The notes under the pieces were generated by a model that made no database searches, had not been told where the DNA came from, and saw only the letters and a list, made by a program, of their open reading frames with translations. The translations under genes and the position numbers were made by a program. Source: Bacteroidota bacterium (GTDB lineage: Bacteria > Bacteroidota > Bacteroidia > Chitinophagales > Saprospiraceae). Taken from it: a stretch of 64,000 nt of DNA. The DNA is taken from contig JASBVF010000016.1 of assembly GCA_030147525.1 (NCBI GenBank), forward strand, positions 124,001 through 188,000. The letters are read 5' to 3'. Numbering within the stretch: position 1 is the first letter of the stretch; every line of letters starts with the position of its first letter. This document shows positions 17,187-60,261 of this stretch, piece by piece.

Positions 17187-17276
17187 GCCCCTGACCCCCT
17201 AAAGGGGGACCATACCTGCTACTTCCCGAATTCTTTTCGCAGAAGAGGCTTTGGTTCCCCTTTAGGGGTCAGGGGC
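17187..17276. repeat. Palindromic repeat element, copy 1 (intergenic)
   Basis: Left arm 17187-17211 (GCCCCTGACCCCCTAAAGGG...) and right arm 17253-17276 (...CTTTAGGGGTCAGGGGC) pair almost fully around a loop of about 40 bases that contains CTTCCCGAA. A near-identical copy lies in frame inside a coding region at 58313-58395. Confidence 0.8.
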
Positions 17277-17298
17277 AGTTAGGGGTCAAACAGCCAAC

Positions 17299-18621
17299 AT
17301 GCCCGAATTCAAACAACCCACCACCGAACAAGACCTCGAACTCGCCTTCGAACAGCTCAAACCCTACATGAACCCCACGATGGCGTACTACGAAAGTTCG
17401 AGGTGCCTTTTCTGCTACGACGCCCCCTGCGTGACGGCCTGCCCGACGGGTATCGACATCCCGCTGTTCATCCGGCAAATCAACACCGGAAATGTGGACG
17501 GGGCGGCGAAGACCATCTACGATTCCAACTATTTCGGCAACATCTGCGGGAAAGTCTGTCCGACGGAGGTACTCTGCGAAGGCGCCTGCGTCTATAACCA
17601 TCAGGACGTGAAGCCCATCGAAATCGGGCGCTTGCAGAGCTACGCCACTTCGCAAGTGATTGAAAAGGAAAAACGACTCTACCATCCCGCCCCGCCGAAT
17701 GGCAAAAAAGTCGCCGTCATCGGCGCAGGTCCGGCGGGCATTTCCTGTGCATGCGAGCTGCGGTTGATGGGTTATGAGGTGACCATTTTCGAAGCAAAAA
17801 AACATCCGTCCGGGCTGGCGATTTATGGTTGTGCGCCCTACAAGGTGACCAACGAGGACGTGCTGGATGAAATCGTCTGGCTGCAGGAGCAGTTCGGTTT
17901 TGAAATTTTATACAACCACCCCATCCACTCGGCGGAGCAAATCAAAAGCCTGGAGGCATACTTCGACGCCATTTTCCTCGGCATAGGTCTGGGAGCTACC
18001 CGCCCGATGAGCATCCCCGGCGAAAATCTGGAAAATTGCTACGGCGCCACTGAATACATCGAGCAGGTGAAAATCAGCCCGCTGAAAGTGCGGGTAGGCA
18101 AAAAAGTCGTCGTCATCGGAGGAGGAAATACGGCGATGGATGCCGCTTCCGAATCCGCCCGGCTGGGAGCGGAGGAGGTGACGCTGGCATACCGGCGCTC
18201 GAAGGAAGAAATGGGCGCTTACGAGTTCGAATATGAACTGGCGAAAGGCGTCGGGGTGAAAGGCATTTTCAACGCTGTGCCCACCGCCATCCTCGGCAAC
18301 GGGCAGGTGGAAGGGGTGCGTTTTATCAAAACTAACTCTGAAAACGGGCGGGTGATTACAGTGCCCGGCAGTGAGTTTGAGCTACCCTGCGACGCAGTGA
18401 TTCTGGCGACCGGGCAGGAAAAAAAGACCGGTTTCCTCTCGCTCATCGAAGGGCTGGAATGGAACAAGGACGGCAGCATCAAAGTAAATGTGGAGACTTT
18501 TCAAACGACAAACCCGAAGTACTTTGCTGGCGGCGATGCGGTGAACGGCGGGGCGGAGGTGGTAAATGCGGCGGCGGAGGGGAAGATGGCGGCGAGGGGT
18601 ATAAATTCCATTATGGCTTAG
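17299..18621 (+). CDS. preT: Dihydropyrimidine dehydrogenase, NAD(P)H-flavin subunit PreT
   Basis: 440 residues. The N-terminal iron-sulfur domain has Cys36, 39, 44, 48 (CLFCYDAPCVTAC) and Cys83, 87, 93, 97. The FAD fold has GAGPAGISC (142-150) and the pyridine-nucleotide fold has GGGNTAMDAA (about 273). The closing FAQTTNPKYFAGGDAVNGG-like segment is typical of glutamate-synthase small-subunit/PreT proteins. With PreA it reduces uracil or thymine to the dihydro form using NAD(P)H. In mammals both parts are one chain (DPYD). preA follows, separated by an inserted four-helix-bundle gene. Confidence 0.9.
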   Translation: MPEFKQPTTEQDLELAFEQLKPYMNPTMAYYESSRCLFCYDAPCVTACPTGIDIPLFIRQINTGNVDGAAKTIYDSNYFGNICGKVCPTEVLCEGACVYNHQDVKPIEIGRLQSYATSQVIEKEKRLYHPAPPNGKKVAVIGAGPAGISCACELRLMGYEVTIFEAKKHPSGLAIYGCAPYKVTNEDVLDEIVWLQEQFGFEILYNHPIHSAEQIKSLEAYFDAIFLGIGLGATRPMSIPGENLENCYGATEYIEQVKISPLKVRVGKKVVVIGGGNTAMDAASESARLGAEEVTLAYRRSKEEMGAYEFEYELAKGVGVKGIFNAVPTAILGNGQVEGVRFIKTNSENGRVITVPGSEFELPCDAVILATGQEKKTGFLSLIEGLEWNKDGSIKVNVETFQTTNPKYFAGGDAVNGGAEVVNAAAEGKMAARGINSIMA

Positions 18622-18622
18622 A

Positions 18623-19160
18623 TTTGATTGACGATTGCAGATTACATGATTGCAGATTTTTGATGTTTTTAAACGACGGTAACTATGAGCAAAACTGCCA
18701 AAAAGAAAATGACGCCGCAGGAAATCGAGCAGCGTCTGATAGACTTTGCTTCCCGAATTCTTGATCTTGTAGAGGCACTGCCTAAAAAGGCGACAGCAAA
18801 ACACATTGGTGGACAGCTGATGCGGTCAGGCACTTCGCCCGCTCTCAACTACGGGGAAGCCCAAGCGGCAGAATCAAGGAGTGATTTTGTCCATAAAATG
18901 AAAGTGTGCCTGAAAGAGCTACGTGAAACGCACGTTTGTTTGAGAATAATTGAGAAACGAAACTGGTTTCAACCAGCAAGATTAACTCCCTTGTTGGTTG
19001 AAAATAATGAACTGATTTCCATGTTTGTTGCCAGTTTGAAAACTGCCACCGGGAATAATGATGGAAAGCCCTCTTCTTAATCAAAACGATAAACAAAAAA
19101 TCGAGCCCACTTCAAAACATCAAAAATCTGCAATCATGTAATCTGCAATCGTCAATCAAA
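18623..19160. repeat. Cassette bounded by perfect 47-bp inverted repeats carrying a four-helix-bundle gene
   Basis: Bases 18623-18669 and 19114-19160 are exact reverse complements over 47 bp. The left arm starts right after the preT stop and the right arm ends 26 bases before the preA start. Arms are built from GATTGCA-like words of about 7 bp. In the preT-preA transcript the arms would form a long duplex with the 131-residue ORF in the loop, the same layout as intervening sequences of bacterial 23S rRNA. Confidence 0.9.
18685..19080 (+). CDS. Four-helix-bundle protein (23S rRNA intervening-sequence protein type)
   Basis: 131 residues, all helical in character, with the family signatures SRILDLVEALPK, HIGGQLMRSGTSPALNYGEAQAAESRSDFVHKMKVCLKELRE and a final helix LVENNELISMF. 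The family was first seen in intervening sequences of 23S rRNA in Leptospira and Coxiella. Related bundles include Avd of diversity-generating retroelements, which binds nucleic acid. The molecular role is not established. Here it lies outside rRNA, between preT and preA, and within perfect inverted repeats. It has a Lys-rich start (SKTAKKKMTPQE). Confidence 0.85.
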   Translation: MSKTAKKKMTPQEIEQRLIDFASRILDLVEALPKKATAKHIGGQLMRSGTSPALNYGEAQAAESRSDFVHKMKVCLKELRETHVCLRIIEKRNWFQPARLTPLLVENNELISMFVASLKTATGNNDGKPSS

Positions 19161-19186
19161 AAACATCTCCAATAAAAAAATCAACC

Positions 19187-20509
19187 ATGCCAAACATCAG
19201 CTCCAACCTCGCAGGAATCCGCTCCCCCAACCCCTTCTGGCTTGCCTCTGCACCGCCAACCAACTCCGGCTACCAGGTCATGAAAGCCTTCGACGCCGGG
19301 TGGGGAGGCGCCGTTTGGAAAACCCTCGGCGTGCCCATCATCAACACGTCGAGCCGGTACGGGGCGATTAACTACCGTAGCAGCCGGATGGTGGGTTTCA
19401 ACAACATCGAACTCATCACCGACCGGACGCTGGCGGACAACCTGCGTGAAATCGAAGAGGTGAAAAAATACTTTCCTGAACATGCGGTCATTGCCTCGCT
19501 GATGGTCGAATCGAGGGCGGAGTGGCACCAGATTGTGAAGGACGTGGAAAACGCCGGCGCCGACGGGGTGGAACTGAACTTCGGCTGCCCGCATGGTATG
19601 TGCGAACGGGGCATGGGGTCGGCAGTCGGGCAGGAGCCGTCCGTGCTGGAGACCATCACCCGCTGGGTGAAGGAGGTCGCCAAAGTGCCGGTCATCGTGA
19701 AACTCACACCCAATATCACCGACATCACCGAACCGGCGGCAGCAGCTGCCCGTGGTGGGGCGGACGCCATTTCCCTCATCAACACCATCCAGAGCCTGAT
19801 GGGTGTTGACCTCGATACTTTTGTGCCTACGCCCATGGTGGACGGCAAGAGCACCAACGGCGGCTACTGCGGTCCTGCCGTGAAGCCCATCGCTTTGAAC
19901 ATGGTGAAAAACTGCGCCCAGGACCCGGACGTGCGCATCCCCATTTCCGGCATCGGCGGTATCGAAAATTGGCGGGACGCCGTGGAGCACATGCTGCTCG
20001 GTGCCAGCAATGTGCAGGTCTGCACGGCGGTGATGCACTACGGCTTCGGCATCATCCGGGAGATGATTCCGGGGCTGGAAAATTTTATGCGGGAAAAGGG
20101 TTTTGAAAAACTGGACGATTTCATCGGAAAAGCCCTGCCCAACGTGAAGACCTGGGAAAATCTGAACCTGAAATACAAAGTCATCGCTGACATCAGTGCC
20201 GAAAAATGCATCGGCTGTCAGCTCTGTTACACCGCCTGTGAGGATGGGGCGCATCAGGCGATTGCTTTGCCAAAAAACGGAAATCGTGTCCCTGAAATCA
20301 TCGAGGGAAACTGCGTCGGCTGCAACCTCTGCTCGCTCGTTTGCCCGGTGGAGGAGTGCATCACAATGGTGCGCAAGGACGACGGTAAAAAGCACGAATC
20401 CTGGAAAGATTACATGGCGGCGGACAAAGCGCCAACTACTTTTAACGATGACCGGGCAGGCGGAAAGGGGCATTGGGTGCCTGAGCCGGCGGCGGCGTTG
20501 AAGAGATGA
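19187..20509 (+). CDS. preA: Dihydropyrimidine dehydrogenase, FMN/iron-sulfur subunit PreA
   Basis: 440 residues. Residues 1 to about 320 are a dihydroorotate-dehydrogenase-type FMN barrel (FWLASAPPTNSGYQV, NFGCPHGMCERGMGS, VKLTPNITDI, ISGIGGIENW). The C-terminal part (about 335-400) is a two-cluster ferredoxin: CIGCQLCYTAC and CVGCNLCSLVCPVEEC. This matches the pyrimidine-binding half of mammalian DPYD and E. coli PreA. It reduces uracil or thymine with electrons from PreT. A GEKEWGG-free but conserved Cys loop (GCPHGMCERG) contains the likely proton donor Cys. The IVP cassette separates it from preT by about 565 bases. Confidence 0.9.
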   Translation: MPNISSNLAGIRSPNPFWLASAPPTNSGYQVMKAFDAGWGGAVWKTLGVPIINTSSRYGAINYRSSRMVGFNNIELITDRTLADNLREIEEVKKYFPEHAVIASLMVESRAEWHQIVKDVENAGADGVELNFGCPHGMCERGMGSAVGQEPSVLETITRWVKEVAKVPVIVKLTPNITDITEPAAAAARGGADAISLINTIQSLMGVDLDTFVPTPMVDGKSTNGGYCGPAVKPIALNMVKNCAQDPDVRIPISGIGGIENWRDAVEHMLLGASNVQVCTAVMHYGFGIIREMIPGLENFMREKGFEKLDDFIGKALPNVKTWENLNLKYKVIADISAEKCIGCQLCYTACEDGAHQAIALPKNGNRVPEIIEGNCVGCNLCSLVCPVEECITMVRKDDGKKHESWKDYMAADKAPTTFNDDRAGGKGHWVPEPAAALKR

Positions 20510-22161: not shown

Positions 22162-22174
22162 AATTGTTTGATTT

Positions 22175-22249
22175 GTTTGAGGGGTTTGAATTGTTTGAGT
22201 TGCCTCGGTTTTCACCTCAAACCCCTCAAACAATTCAAACTCCTCAAAC
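22175..22249. terminator. Large hairpin of TTTGA words between the M28 gene and the aldehyde dehydrogenase
   Basis: 25-base arms (22175-22199 and 22225-22249) pair at 24 positions; units read as GTTTGAGG and GTTTGAATT. The second arm ends eight bases before the ATG at 22257, so it could be a terminator/attenuator or cover the ribosome site of the next gene. Confidence 0.6.
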
Positions 22250-22256
22250 GAAAAAA

Positions 22257-23696
22257 ATGCAAATCCAAAATTACATCAACGGCCAACTCCACCCCGCCCA
22301 ATCCGGCGGCTGGCTCGACAATTTCAACCCCTCCAACGGGCAGGTTTATTCCCAAATCCCCGACTCCGACGCCGCCGATGTGCAGGCCGCCGTCGAAGCA
22401 GCGGAGGCAGCGTTTCCGGCCTGGTCCACCTGCGGCGTGAACGAGCGCTACCGCATCCTCCACCGCATCGCTGACCTCATCCGGGAGCGGCTGGAAGAAT
22501 TGGCGCAAGCCGAAAGCAAAGACTCCGGCAAGGCCATCACCACTTCCCGCACGGTGGACATCCCGCGGGCGGAGGCGAACATCCGGTTTTTTGCGACAGC
22601 GATCCTGCACTTTGGCTCGGAGTCGCACCAGATGGAGGGCATGGCTGTGAACTACACCCTGCGCCAACCCATCGGCGTGGTTGGCTGCATCTCACCGTGG
22701 AATTTGCCGCTCTACCTGTTCACCTGGAAAATCGCACCGGCGCTGGCGGCGGGTAATTGCGTGGTTGCCAAGCCATCAGAACTCACGCCCATGACGGGGT
22801 TTTTATTGTCAAAAATCTGCATCGAAGCGGGGCTGCCTGCGGGCGTGCTGAACATCGTCCACGGCCTCGGCCCGAAGGCCGGACAGGCCATCGTCGAGCA
22901 TCCTAAAATCAAGGCCGTCAGTTTCACCGGTGGCACTTCCACGGGCCGCATCCTCGCCCGCACGGCTGCGCCGATGTTTAAAAAACTGTCGCTGGAGTTG
23001 GGTGGTAAAAACCCGAACGTCATTTTCGCCGACTGCAATTTCGAGGAGGCAGTGAGTACGACCGTGCGTTCCTCGTTTGCCAACAATGGTCAGATATGTC
23101 TCTGTGGATCAAGGGTTTACATCGAAAGGCCGATCTATGAAAAATTCCGGGACGAACTCGTCCGCCGGGCAAAAAACCTGAAAGTCGGCGATCCGTTCGA
23201 TGCCGGTACCGACCTCGGTTCACTCGTTTCAAAACAACACCGGGAAAAAGTGCAGGGCTACCTCGCCCTCGCCAGGGAAGAGGGCGGGACGGTACTCTGC
23301 GGCGGCGAACCCGTCGAACTGCCGGGCGAATTGTCGGGCGGTTACTACCTTAGCCCTGCCGTCGTCGAGGGCCTGCCGAACGCCTGCCGCACAAACCAGG
23401 AGGAAATTTTCGGCCCAGTCGTCACGCTCCAGCCTTTCGATACGGAGGAGGAAGCCCTCGCCCTGGCCAACGGCGTTGAGTACGGTCTCGCTTCCACGAT
23501 CTGGACGAGCGACATCAGCCGGGCGGCACGGGTGGCCGAGCGCATTCAGGCGGGCATCGTCTGGATCAATTGCTGGATGGTGCGGGACTTGCGGACGCCG
23601 TTCGGCGGGGTGAAAAACTCCGGCGTGGGGCGGGAAGGCGGCACGGAGGCGTTGCGGTTTTTTACCGAGGCGAAAAATGTTTGTATAAAATATTGA
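22257..23696 (+). CDS. Aldehyde dehydrogenase, ALDH8/2-aminomuconate-semialdehyde type
   Basis: 479 residues from ATG 22257; the upstream open frame only covers the previous gene and hairpin. Active-site residues are Glu247 (LELGGKNPN) and Cys281 in NNGQICLCGSR. The QICLC form and WINCWMVRDLRTPFGGVKNSGVGREGG are typical of ALDH8 / 2-hydroxymuconate- and 2-aminomuconate-semialdehyde dehydrogenases. They oxidise semialdehydes with NAD+ in aromatic or kynurenine breakdown. No other gene of those routes is visible here, so the substrate is open. A role in malonate-semialdehyde oxidation is possible but mmsA (36445) is the better candidate. Confidence 0.8.
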   Translation: MQIQNYINGQLHPAQSGGWLDNFNPSNGQVYSQIPDSDAADVQAAVEAAEAAFPAWSTCGVNERYRILHRIADLIRERLEELAQAESKDSGKAITTSRTVDIPRAEANIRFFATAILHFGSESHQMEGMAVNYTLRQPIGVVGCISPWNLPLYLFTWKIAPALAAGNCVVAKPSELTPMTGFLLSKICIEAGLPAGVLNIVHGLGPKAGQAIVEHPKIKAVSFTGGTSTGRILARTAAPMFKKLSLELGGKNPNVIFADCNFEEAVSTTVRSSFANNGQICLCGSRVYIERPIYEKFRDELVRRAKNLKVGDPFDAGTDLGSLVSKQHREKVQGYLALAREEGGTVLCGGEPVELPGELSGGYYLSPAVVEGLPNACRTNQEEIFGPVVTLQPFDTEEEALALANGVEYGLASTIWTSDISRAARVAERIQAGIVWINCWMVRDLRTPFGGVKNSGVGREGGTEALRFFTEAKNVCIKY

Positions 23697-31722: not shown

Positions 31723-31748
31723 TGGTTGGCGATTCGTTTTTCTTTATG

Positions 31749-31814
31749 AACGCAGAGGCGCTTAGACGCAGAGTTTTTGAAAATAAGATCTCTGCGTCTC
31801 AGCGCCTCTGCGTT
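31749..31814. terminator. 25-bp hairpin between the aminotransferase and the NCS1 gene
   Basis: Arms 31749-31773 and 31790-31814 pair at 24 of 25 positions (words AACGCAGAGGCGCT and GACGCAGAG), with a loop of 16 bases. It sits in the gap of a minus-strand gene series and could stop or attenuate transcription or stabilise RNA ends. Confidence 0.65.
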
Positions 31815-31824
31815 TATTTTAATA

Positions 31825-45904: not shown

Positions 45905-45923
45905 CTTCAGTGTAAAATTGAAT

Positions 45924-45964
45924 AGTTTAAGGGTTTAAAAGATTGCTGTTTAAACCCTTAAACT
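45924..45964. terminator. Perfect 16-bp hairpin between convergent genes
   Basis: AGTTTAAGGGTTTAAA (45924-45939) and TTTAAACCCTTAAACT (45949-45964) are exact reverse complements around nine bases. Placed between the convergent TlpA-like and symporter genes, it can end both. Confidence 0.7.
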
Positions 45965-45972
45965 CTACCCTT

Positions 45973-47706
45973 TTAAACCTGTCCCTCAGGCTTCTTCCCT
46001 GCAAATTGCTGCAGGATAAAACTCACACCAATCACCACCGCACACCCGATCGGGTTCAGCCACAGAAATCCGATATCCTCCACTCCGTCAGCACGGTCCC
46101 AGAAATACACGGCTATCACCGCTGCTTCAGCAACGAGGCCACCGATAAAAACGGGCGTGGCCGAAATTCTTTTAAAGAAAAATGCCACCAGGAAAATCCC
46201 CAGGATTGTGCCGTAGAGCAACGACCCGACGATGTTCACCGCCTGGATCAGGTTCTCGAAAAGCGAAGCGATGGCCGCAAACATGATCGCCACCACGCCC
46301 CACCCGAACGTAAATCCTTTCGATACTTTCAGGTAATGCTCGTCTGTTTCGTCGGGCCGGAACGAACGGCGGTAGAGATCCACCACACTCGTTGTGGACA
46401 AGGCCGTCAACTCCGAAGCCGTGGAGGACATGGCCGCACAAAAGATCACGGCAAACAACAGCCCCACCACGCCCCTCGGCAGGTAGTTGATGACGTAGGT
46501 AATGAAAACATAGTCCCGGTCATTGGTCTCGATGGGCGTGCCTTTTTCGTTTGCAATTTCCGTCAGGAGGTTATCCACTTCCGCCCTCACCTGGCGGTCC
46601 TGCTGCTCCATCGACATCACGTTGGCCCTCGCTTTTTCGATAGCCGAAGGATCGTCCTGGCGAAGCGCCCCGACGAGATCGAACACCGCTGCCTGCTTTT
46701 TTTCAAAAACATCATCGTGTTGTTGCTTCAGGCTTTCGTACTGTGGCTGGTAGTTGGTCGCAGCTTCGAGTTTTGTCAGGTTGGCCTGGTTGAAATGAAT
46801 TGGCGGTTTTACAAACTGAAAAAAGATAAAAACCATCACGCCTGTAAACAGCACCAGGTACTGCATCGGAATTTTGATGAAACCGTTCATCAGCAGCCCC
46901 ACCCGGCTCTGCCGCAGCGAGCGCCCCGTCAGGTAGCGCTGCACCTGCGACTGGTCGGTGCCGAAATACGACAGGAAAAGGAACAGCGCAGCGATCATCC
47001 CCGACCAGATATTGTAGCGATTCGACAGGTCGAACTCCACGTCGAGGGCTTCCATTTTACCCATCTCACGGGCCACGCCGACTGCTTCCCCAAACGACAG
47101 GTCTTTCGGCAGGTTGAAAACGATGAGGATCGCCGCCAGTATCAGCCCGCCGAGCATCACCGTCATCTGTTGCTTTTGGGTGAAACTCACCGCTTTCGTG
47201 CCGCCCATCACCGTGTAAAAGGTGACGGCCAGACCAATCAGCACAATGGTCGTGTGCAGGTTCCAGCCCATGATGTTGTTCAGAATGATCGATGGAGCGG
47301 AGATGGTGAAACCCGCCGCCATACCCCTCGAAAACAGGAACAGCACCGCCGCCAGCGTCCGGGTTTTTTGATCAAAACGATTCTCCAAGTACTCGTAAGC
47401 CGTGTAAACATTGAGCCGGTAGTAGATCGGCAGGATGAAAATGCAGATCAGGATCATGGCCAGCGGCATGCCGTAGTAAAACTGCACGAAGCGCATACCG
47501 TCGTCGTAACCCTGGCCCGGCGTACTGAGGAAAGTGATCGCACTGGCCTGCGTGGCCATCACGCTCAGGCCGATCGTCCACCAGCTTAGTTCCCGGTCGC
47601 CTTTGAGGTAACTCTGTGCAGTTCGAACGCTGCGGGTTTTCCAAATGCCGTAAGCGATGATGCCGGCCAGAACGGCAAGCATGACAGTCCAGTCGATCCA
47701 ATGCAT
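45973..47706 (-). CDS. Sodium:solute symporter (SSS family)
   Basis: 577 residues from the ATG at 47706; the open frame above it to 48048 covers the intergenic region and is rejected. About thirteen hydrophobic segments, beginning MHWIDWTVMLAVLAGIIAYG. Segments SWWTIGLSVMATQASAITFLSTPGQGYDDG and FAVIFCAAMSSTASELTALSTTSVVDLYRR are SSS signatures with Na+-site Ser/Thr residues. A soluble, charged insert of about 80 residues (KLEAATNYQPQYESLKQQHD ... VRAEVDNLLTEI) lies in the middle, longer than in sugar or proline carriers. The substrate is unknown. Inner membrane. Confidence 0.85.
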   Translation of the reverse strand: MHWIDWTVMLAVLAGIIAYGIWKTRSVRTAQSYLKGDRELSWWTIGLSVMATQASAITFLSTPGQGYDDGMRFVQFYYGMPLAMILICIFILPIYYRLNVYTAYEYLENRFDQKTRTLAAVLFLFSRGMAAGFTISAPSIILNNIMGWNLHTTIVLIGLAVTFYTVMGGTKAVSFTQKQQMTVMLGGLILAAILIVFNLPKDLSFGEAVGVAREMGKMEALDVEFDLSNRYNIWSGMIAALFLFLSYFGTDQSQVQRYLTGRSLRQSRVGLLMNGFIKIPMQYLVLFTGVMVFIFFQFVKPPIHFNQANLTKLEAATNYQPQYESLKQQHDDVFEKKQAAVFDLVGALRQDDPSAIEKARANVMSMEQQDRQVRAEVDNLLTEIANEKGTPIETNDRDYVFITYVINYLPRGVVGLLFAVIFCAAMSSTASELTALSTTSVVDLYRRSFRPDETDEHYLKVSKGFTFGWGVVAIMFAAIASLFENLIQAVNIVGSLLYGTILGIFLVAFFFKRISATPVFIGGLVAEAAVIAVYFWDRADGVEDIGFLWLNPIGCAVVIGVSFILQQFAGKKPEGQV

Positions 47707-49029: not shown

Positions 49030-49078
49030 TATTTCTCCCTCAATTTTTGATGTAAAAAACCGCAAACGGATACTTGAG

Positions 49079-49372
49079 AGGTCCAAACGAGTACCTTACA
49101 GGTCCATACCTGCACTTAAAAGGTCCAAACGAGTACCTTACAGGTCCATACTCGCACCTAAAAGGTCCAAACGAGCACCTTACAGGTCCATACCCGCACC
49201 TAAAAGGTCCAAACGAGTACTTTAAAAGTACTTTACTCAAGCTTTAAAGTATATTACCCGACTTCAAAGGTCCAAACGAGTACTTTACAGGTCCATACTC
49301 GCACCTAAAAGGTCCAAACGAGTACCTTATAGGTCCATACTCGTAGTAAAAAGGTCGAAACGAGTAGCTAAA
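49079..49372. repeat. Tandem array of fourteen 21-bp units
   Basis: Each unit begins AGGTCCA. Two types alternate: one continues AACGAGTACCTTAC, the other TACTCGCACCTAAA, so the period is really 42 bp. CGAGTA of one type pairs with TACTCG of the next, giving a row of possible hairpins with 13-base loops. The two middle units (49226-49267) are degenerate. On the minus strand it can be read as a heptapeptide repeat (S/Y)FGP(F/V)(R/K)(C/Y), but no gene signals are seen. The rest of 49030-49455 holds only the insertion-sequence left end. Confidence 0.9.
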
Positions 49373-49455
49373 GAGTACGGTAAAAAGTACTTTAAAGAGT
49401 CACTTCATTAAACGGTGTCAAGAAAATTTTTTATCATTCCGCATAAACTTGACAC

Positions 49456-56592: not shown

Positions 56593-60261
<3,669 letters not shown>

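Follow-up and report, generated by a model that had tools for sequence, protein, structure and literature searches.

The window, by which we mean the whole 64,000-nucleotide stretch of DNA that was analysed, contains a small gene enclosed by inverted repeats at the junction of preT and preA (Table 1). The inverted arms are 50 nt long and 98% complementary, with a perfect core of 47 bp, and the enclosed open reading frame lies on the coding strand. Its product matches two families of four-helix-bundle (4HB) proteins, TIGR02436 with 79.3 bits (cut-off 24) and PF05635 with 52 bits (cut-off 33.8). The first-pass annotation had described perfect 47-bp inverted repeats around such a gene, starting right after preT and ending before preA. 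This is borne out, the preT stop codon being separated from the left arm by one base and the right arm from the preA ATG by 26 nt. The name preT is that of the earlier annotation, and the table gives what its protein carries; the downstream gene has an NCBIfam PreA match of 6.5e-199. By eye, the window arm is itself repetitive.

Table 1. Features of the cassette and its host operon, in window coordinates.
Feature	Position	Strand	Basis or remark
preT-like gene, upstream, host operon	17299-18621	+	Fer4_20 and Pyr_redox_2
5' arm, about six GATTNNN-like units	18623-18672	+	perfect core 18623-18669; related copies elsewhere in the genome
4HB gene, TIGR02436 / PF05635, 23S rRNA IVP / S23 family, 131 aa	18685-19080	+	profile matches, predicted fold
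3' arm, reverse complement of the 5' arm	19111-19160	+	perfect core 19114-19160; RNA fold
preA gene, downstream, host operon	19187-20509	+	NCBIfam PreA

In the predicted RNA fold of positions 18600-19200 the arms are paired end to end, and the fold has an energy of -192.3 kcal/mol, whereas 20 shuffles average -133.7 (z = -11). This agrees with the earlier suggestion that the arms pair in the transcript and hold the gene in the loop. The genome of the window (G000) was scanned for inverted repeats over 768 kb, made up of the whole of contig C31 plus 400 kb of C19, in 4-kb windows. The scan gives 62 merged inverted repeats that score at least 22, 53 of them with a loop no longer than 60 nt. Only two of the 62, the window cassette and C31:89504-90021, have a loop in the range of 301-700 nt. 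The latter lies outside the window (L102) and has perfect arms of 32 bp around a GxxExxY gene (TIGR04256, E 1.6e-39); the one other gene of this family within the 768 kb (C19:34950) scores only 12 and has no such arms. Since these loops are so rare, we do not regard the arms of the window cassette as a product of chance. Domain profile searches found no transposase or other catalytic domain in the cassette gene. The window protein has no PADLOC or PHROGs match at E<=0.01, so a known defence or phage family was dropped as an identity for it. The 4HB protein of a further locus (L071) is unmatched in phage records.

The preA gene is present in 12 relatives (L002-L013) and has an adjoining preT in eight of these. 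Four of the eight junctions (G018, G029, G017 and G030) consist of a short gap with neither hairpin nor gene. The junctions of G034 and G033 hold hairpins of other motifs without a gene, the loop in G033 being longer, and that of G010 holds a different small gene, which is DUF433-like by eye. In G009, which belongs to the same genus as G000, the junction contains an orthologous 4HB gene (68% over 125 residues) together with a 15-bp remnant of the left arm, and a complete hairpin of similar motif lies behind the gene. Because half of the related junctions are short and lack both hairpin and gene, the window cassette is, judged from these alignments, an insertion into the preT-preA junction. The junctions hold differing hairpins, and different hairpins have therefore entered preT-preA in different lineages. 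The first-pass annotation had proposed comparing the spacing in relatives, and had named arms conserved in every preTA operon as an outcome that would refute it; the four short gaps rule that outcome out. It had also taken the perfection of the arms as a sign of recent insertion or selection. Recent insertion is not needed as an explanation, and a recent one-off event was dropped, as the orthologous gene is already at the G009 junction.

The search for further copies that the first-pass annotation had suggested finds eight 4HB loci in G000, one of them broken, and matches to the window arm elsewhere in the genome. All eight loci lie between inverted arms, the motif of which varies by copy while the style, tandem short units, is alike. 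To score the pairing of arms we used the local complementarity of the two 300-bp flanks of each gene, with a threshold of at least 16, and the flanks of mismatched locus pairs as the control. The genus has 135 4HB rows, from which loci were picked roughly by profile score, 95 in a first batch (five without flanks) and 20 in a second (two without flanks); the remaining rows include fragments. In the first batch the locus's own flanks reach the threshold in 71 of 90 cases, compared with 1.55% of 7984 mismatched pairs. In the second batch 17/18 loci pair against a high mismatched control of 15.7%, which is due to one motif common to many loci. The genus total is 88 of 108 loci with paired flanks. 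A wide set from many phyla, for which the 80 best relatives of one 4HB subfamily were taken out of 587 (one lacking a flank), has 39/79 loci at the threshold and 0.57% of mismatched pairs. Six loci on cyanobacterial plasmids, chosen by hand among the best rows of 44 records and scored with no control, give 31, 24, 15, 22, 24 and 29, i.e. at least 22 in five of six. One of the plasmid loci, in Pseudanabaena (L531, 1285-1966), has the order cas6-4HB-cas4 with AAAGCTA-type heptads on both sides. Arm pairing around 4HB genes is not universal, or it decays, since only 6 of the 30 top-scoring loci in a phylum-wide sample reach the threshold; 19/90 genus loci and 40/79 wide loci also fall below it.

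Cold-shock genes of the same genomes have paired flanks in 0/19 cases (19 of 22 rows), with a mismatched control that is inflated to 12.3% at the threshold, we think because orthologous loci in opposite orientation match. Genes of the GxxExxY family are nuclease-like. In the genus they are flanked by paired arms in 19 of 28 cases (28 of 32 rows), compared with 4.2% of mismatched pairs. This second gene family with the same layout favours an explanation in which slippage, template switching or recombination creates and spreads the heptad hairpins. The 4HB gene would then be a passenger with a separate function in the cell, carried from hairpin to hairpin by homologous recombination through the arms. 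We consider such hitch-hiking unlikely. The upstream neighbour, taken from open frames, is co-directional in 58/71 4HB loci, and this fits expression of the 4HB gene by read-through.

The arm motif was compared with protein identity in pairs of loci on different contigs and without similar neighbours. Arms match in 19/23 pairs at 75% protein identity or more, 5/25 at 65-75%, 4/30 at 55-65%, 2/106 at 45-55% and about 0.1% of 3775 pairs below 45%, the pairs being non-independent. Two loci (L229 and L232, with 71 and 75% protein identity) have the gene and the arm motif of the window element at another genomic place. Shared descent combined with hitch-hiking could, as far as these comparisons go, be the source of the match between arm and protein.

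One site is seen with and without the gene. The genes that flank a G007 element (L212) also adjoin in G001, G004 and G012. At this site G001 and G012 have a bare hairpin of the same TTGGCAGT motif and no gene, and in G004 the hairpin has decayed. The G011 contig extends past the upstream gene as far as the 3' arm of a TTGGCAGT hairpin, inside which it ends. Both G001 and G004 have an 88-90% identical gene elsewhere, within arms of the TTGGCAGT motif. One family thus occurs in two states, with the gene or as a bare hairpin, and gain and loss at the G007 site are not polarised. The sites compared, at the preT-preA junction and at the G007 element, are too diverged or already filled by a hairpin for a target-site duplication to be readable. 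A tandem array at G007:C125:5646-6565 has units of about 42 bp that match the right-arm region of L212.

Copies of the arms also occur without a gene. The window arm has 40 matches at E<=10 in its own genome, its own two arms included, most of the better matches being short inverted pairs. These short hairpins often lie, by eye, behind stop codons, as would ordinary bidirectional terminators that flank a small gene by coincidence. Such terminators are an extremely improbable explanation, given that the arms pair across the gene, that the arm motif goes with the protein subfamily and that the cold-shock genes of the same genomes have no such flanks. Across the genus, at E<=1e-4 and with own arms included, the window arm has 31 matches in G011, 13 each in G000 and G012, eight in G001, six in G013, four each in G004 and G007, three in G008, one in G006 and none in the others. 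Relatives of the window protein at about 70% or more are found, among the 110 of 135 rows compared, in G009, G001, G011 and G012 (74% over 105 residues in the last). The four highest arm counts belong to G000 and three of these four genomes. The fourth, G009, has the orthologous 4HB gene, yet it has zero copies of window-type arms at E<=1e-4.

Own and foreign arms were compared in samples of three genomes (768, 390 and 384 kb) with the 4HB loci masked. Gene-less copies are present for 17/23 own arms and 27/159 foreign arms (Fisher p 7e-8, a generous value as loci and pairs are non-independent), and arms whose protein has a relative of at least 60% in the sampled genome are intermediate (17/31). 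The better representation of own arms argues against hitch-hiking. The copies of 27 foreign arms show that some hairpin families are without a matching gene; likewise, TTGGCAGT arms are present in G008 and G011, where the candidates scored (33 of 148 and 33 of 202) include no match to the gene. In Rhodanobacter the heptads of a 4HB element have at least 69 matches in the genome, own arms included, which form at least 28 inverted pairs and at least 13 singles, and the 28 inverted pairs are all of one polarity. In Thiohalocapsa two of five other arm matches are in hairpins found by script (L429, L431) and a third (L430) in one found by eye. From these comparisons, the copies with and without a gene look like one dispersed hairpin family, of which the cassette is the gene-bearing form. 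The Rhodanobacter record L398 has its 4HB element with GGGATTC heptads at about 1950-2410, between genes that by eye are accB and accC.

The arms have a regular composition. Among the 81 genus loci that pair at 14 or more, 56 have a periodic 5' flank, as have 50 of the 79 wide loci, and no shuffle mean reaches the periodicity threshold. The commonest period is 7 (34/56 genus and 39/50 wide loci), followed by 8, and a periodic arm has a median of about five units, mostly of 7-8 nt. In gene orientation the 5' arm contains more G than C in 69/71 genus loci and 37/39 wide loci, a single polarity that a passenger would not need and that counts against hitch-hiking. Gene-less hairpins are less strict. 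Among 25 longer hairpins of the G000 sample 19 have a G-richer 5' arm and six a C-richer one, and in the window family two of the five closest hairpin pairs are reversed in polarity (C46 and C31:308766). At orthologous loci the own arms are more complementary than exchanged arms in 15/19 cases, equal in two and reversed in two; the mean scores of 26.1 and 21.9 differ modestly, and one of the pairs consists of two loci of one genome.

Dispersed hairpins beside a gene are known from REPIN-RAYT systems, in which extragenic repeats form inverted pairs and a repeat class corresponds to each partner gene (PMC3116915). The window-arm repeat is similarly dispersed as inverted pairs, and the 4HB gene is flanked by its own repeat family. 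Unlike in those systems, the partner is a four-helix bundle and not a Y1 tyrosine transposase, the arms consist of tandem 7-8-nt units, and a genome holds several 4HB genes and motifs. A rival explanation is that a Y1 (RAYT) transposase moves the hairpins as REPINs and that the 4HB gene plays no part. Y1 genes are present in 12/14 genus genomes, and 13 of 15 tested (the longest matches of 47 rows) have inverted repeats of their own in their flanks, compared with 8.6% of mismatched pairs; these also serve as a positive control. Among the 30 Y1 flanks, L475 has a strong 7-nt period (20.6) and L484 a weak 8-nt one (12.6). The other 28 are below the periodicity threshold, set at 12, whereas most 4HB flanks are above it. 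G002 and G013 (89% and 78% complete) have no Y1 match, and both carry 4HB genes. Y1-driven REPINs were dropped on these two grounds and are a very improbable source of the hairpins.

The 4HB gene is under strong purifying selection. dN/dS is 0.02-0.13 in all unsaturated 4HB pairs bar one (0.22, from long fused frames); many pairs are saturated in dS. Because of these low values the 4HB protein is very likely translated and kept, to judge from the codons, and the same selection would fit the host function that hitch-hiking proposes. At two loci, L190 (G005:C77) and L192 (G003:C40), the 4HB domain is part of an open frame longer than 500 aa, which may encode a fusion protein. The predicted fold of the window protein has a pLDDT of 91.9. 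Its best matches are 2rld and 2gsc, followed by Avd 4dwl (TM-score 0.69 by query, 15% identity), and 8ub7 is also among the matches. Avd proteins of diversity-generating retroelements resemble the window protein in their 4HB fold (4dwl and 8ub7); a likeness of Avd to PF05635 has been noted (PMC10053308). The depositions 2rld and 2gsc have five chains each. A Xanthomonas protein of the family is a homopentamer, and the account that reports it gives the function of the S23/IVP family as not known (PMC4990558). The pairing of an arm of about five units with a protein of five chains suggests, as a guess by analogy, that one unit is bound per subunit. Ring binding in TRAP is somewhat similar.

The first-pass annotation compared the cassette with the intervening sequences (IVS) of rRNA, as an element of the same type in a metabolic mRNA, one that possibly separates the PreT and PreA messages. 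Part of this comparison stands. As in the IVS of Coxiella and Leptospira, the protein belongs to the S23/IVP family and its gene lies in the loop of a long stem, here a perfect one of 47 bp into which the cassette ends pair (z -11), and the insertion is in the sense direction within an operon. The Coxiella IVS is excised by RNase III and has GACAGAT heptamer repeats 5' of its ORF (PMC4990558). The two share the protein family and the stem-loop anatomy, as would be expected of an rRNA-type IVS that had been copied into the preTA operon and is removed by RNase III. Other parts of the comparison need revision. The cassette lies between preT and preA and not within an rRNA gene, and none of 20 scanned non-Bacteroidota 4HB loci (of 80 fetched) is inside rRNA; a search of 20 4HB loci against Rfam gave one riboswitch and nothing else. 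Embedding between arms is common for the gene family across many bacteria, the iterated arms of the eight G000 copies differ, and gene-less hairpins exist, the window arm itself matching dispersed intergenic families. The cassette ORF is strongly conserved, whereas that of Coxiella is described as being under reductive evolution (PMC4990558). We consider a true IVS in the mRNA to be improbable. The cassette is neither an IVS by its location nor a RAYT element by its enzyme, although it would work like both.

Intergenic arrays of heptamers have been described in several groups, including GGGAATC in Xanthomonas, GGGGATT in Nostoc and TAACTGA in Beggiatoaceae and others (PMC4679880, PMC4692102). 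In two Xanthomonas genomes there are 70 and 75 cases in which two heptamer repeats face each other as inverted repeats (PMC4692102). Their unit length is that of the arms described here. The sections of the two papers that treat the arrays differ from our results in describing no partner gene or mechanism (PMC4679880, PMC4692102), and one states that 'no mechanism is evident' (PMC4679880). These widespread arrays, with no partner protein described (PMC4679880, PMC4692102), speak for hitch-hiking. Heptamers similar to the published ones flank 4HB genes in our material, with GGGATTC in Rhodanobacter and others on cyanobacterial plasmids.

We favour, as probable though with modest confidence, a hairpin family with a dedicated 4HB partner that works like REPIN-RAYT minus the transposase. 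The cassette would be the gene-bearing form of dispersed hairpins whose arms are tandem 7-8-nt units, and the 4HB protein the dedicated partner of its own hairpin family. Read-through from the upstream gene would supply the message for the protein, which may assemble as a five-membered ring and in this form could bind the units repeated in the G-rich 5' arm. With its help the family would spread, or the gene would move from the loop of one hairpin to that of another with matching arms. Once preT-preA is transcribed, the two arms would pair into a duplex of 47 bp; RNase III probably cuts it, and such a cut would release the 4HB message from the neighbouring messages. If this is true, a protein that is no transposase would be tied to a dispersed hairpin family, here within a metabolic operon.

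A broader proposal is possible and we make it tentatively. Heptad hairpins and 4HB proteins may constitute one widespread class of elements, in which a ring protein acting on RNA or single-stranded DNA recognises the tandem units of the 5' arm, each subunit taking one of them, and makes its own hairpin family spread. To this class would belong the IVS of rRNA, the IVP genes found in cas loci, and also the intergenic heptamers known from Xanthomonadaceae, cyanobacteria and Bacteroidota. IVP genes in cas loci have been reported as 18 genes (PMC3936711). In the openly licensed literature searched we did not find a link of 4HB/IVP genes to dispersed hairpins. Such a link would name for each genome both a protein and its target, and both questions, the function of the protein and the mechanism of the heptamers, would be reducible to one of binding.

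Other repeats are present in the window. A second type of hairpin, CCCCTGACCCC...GGGGTCAGGGGC, is found by eye at about 17188-17280, just upstream of preT, and also at 58310-58399. This type has a C-rich 5' arm, the polarity opposite to that of the 4HB arms. Short gene-less hairpins with arms of iterated motifs are located at 22167-22257, 31746-31817 and 45910-45978 and perhaps represent other such families. A repeat with a 21-nt period, in twelve overlapping copies, occupies 49030-49378.
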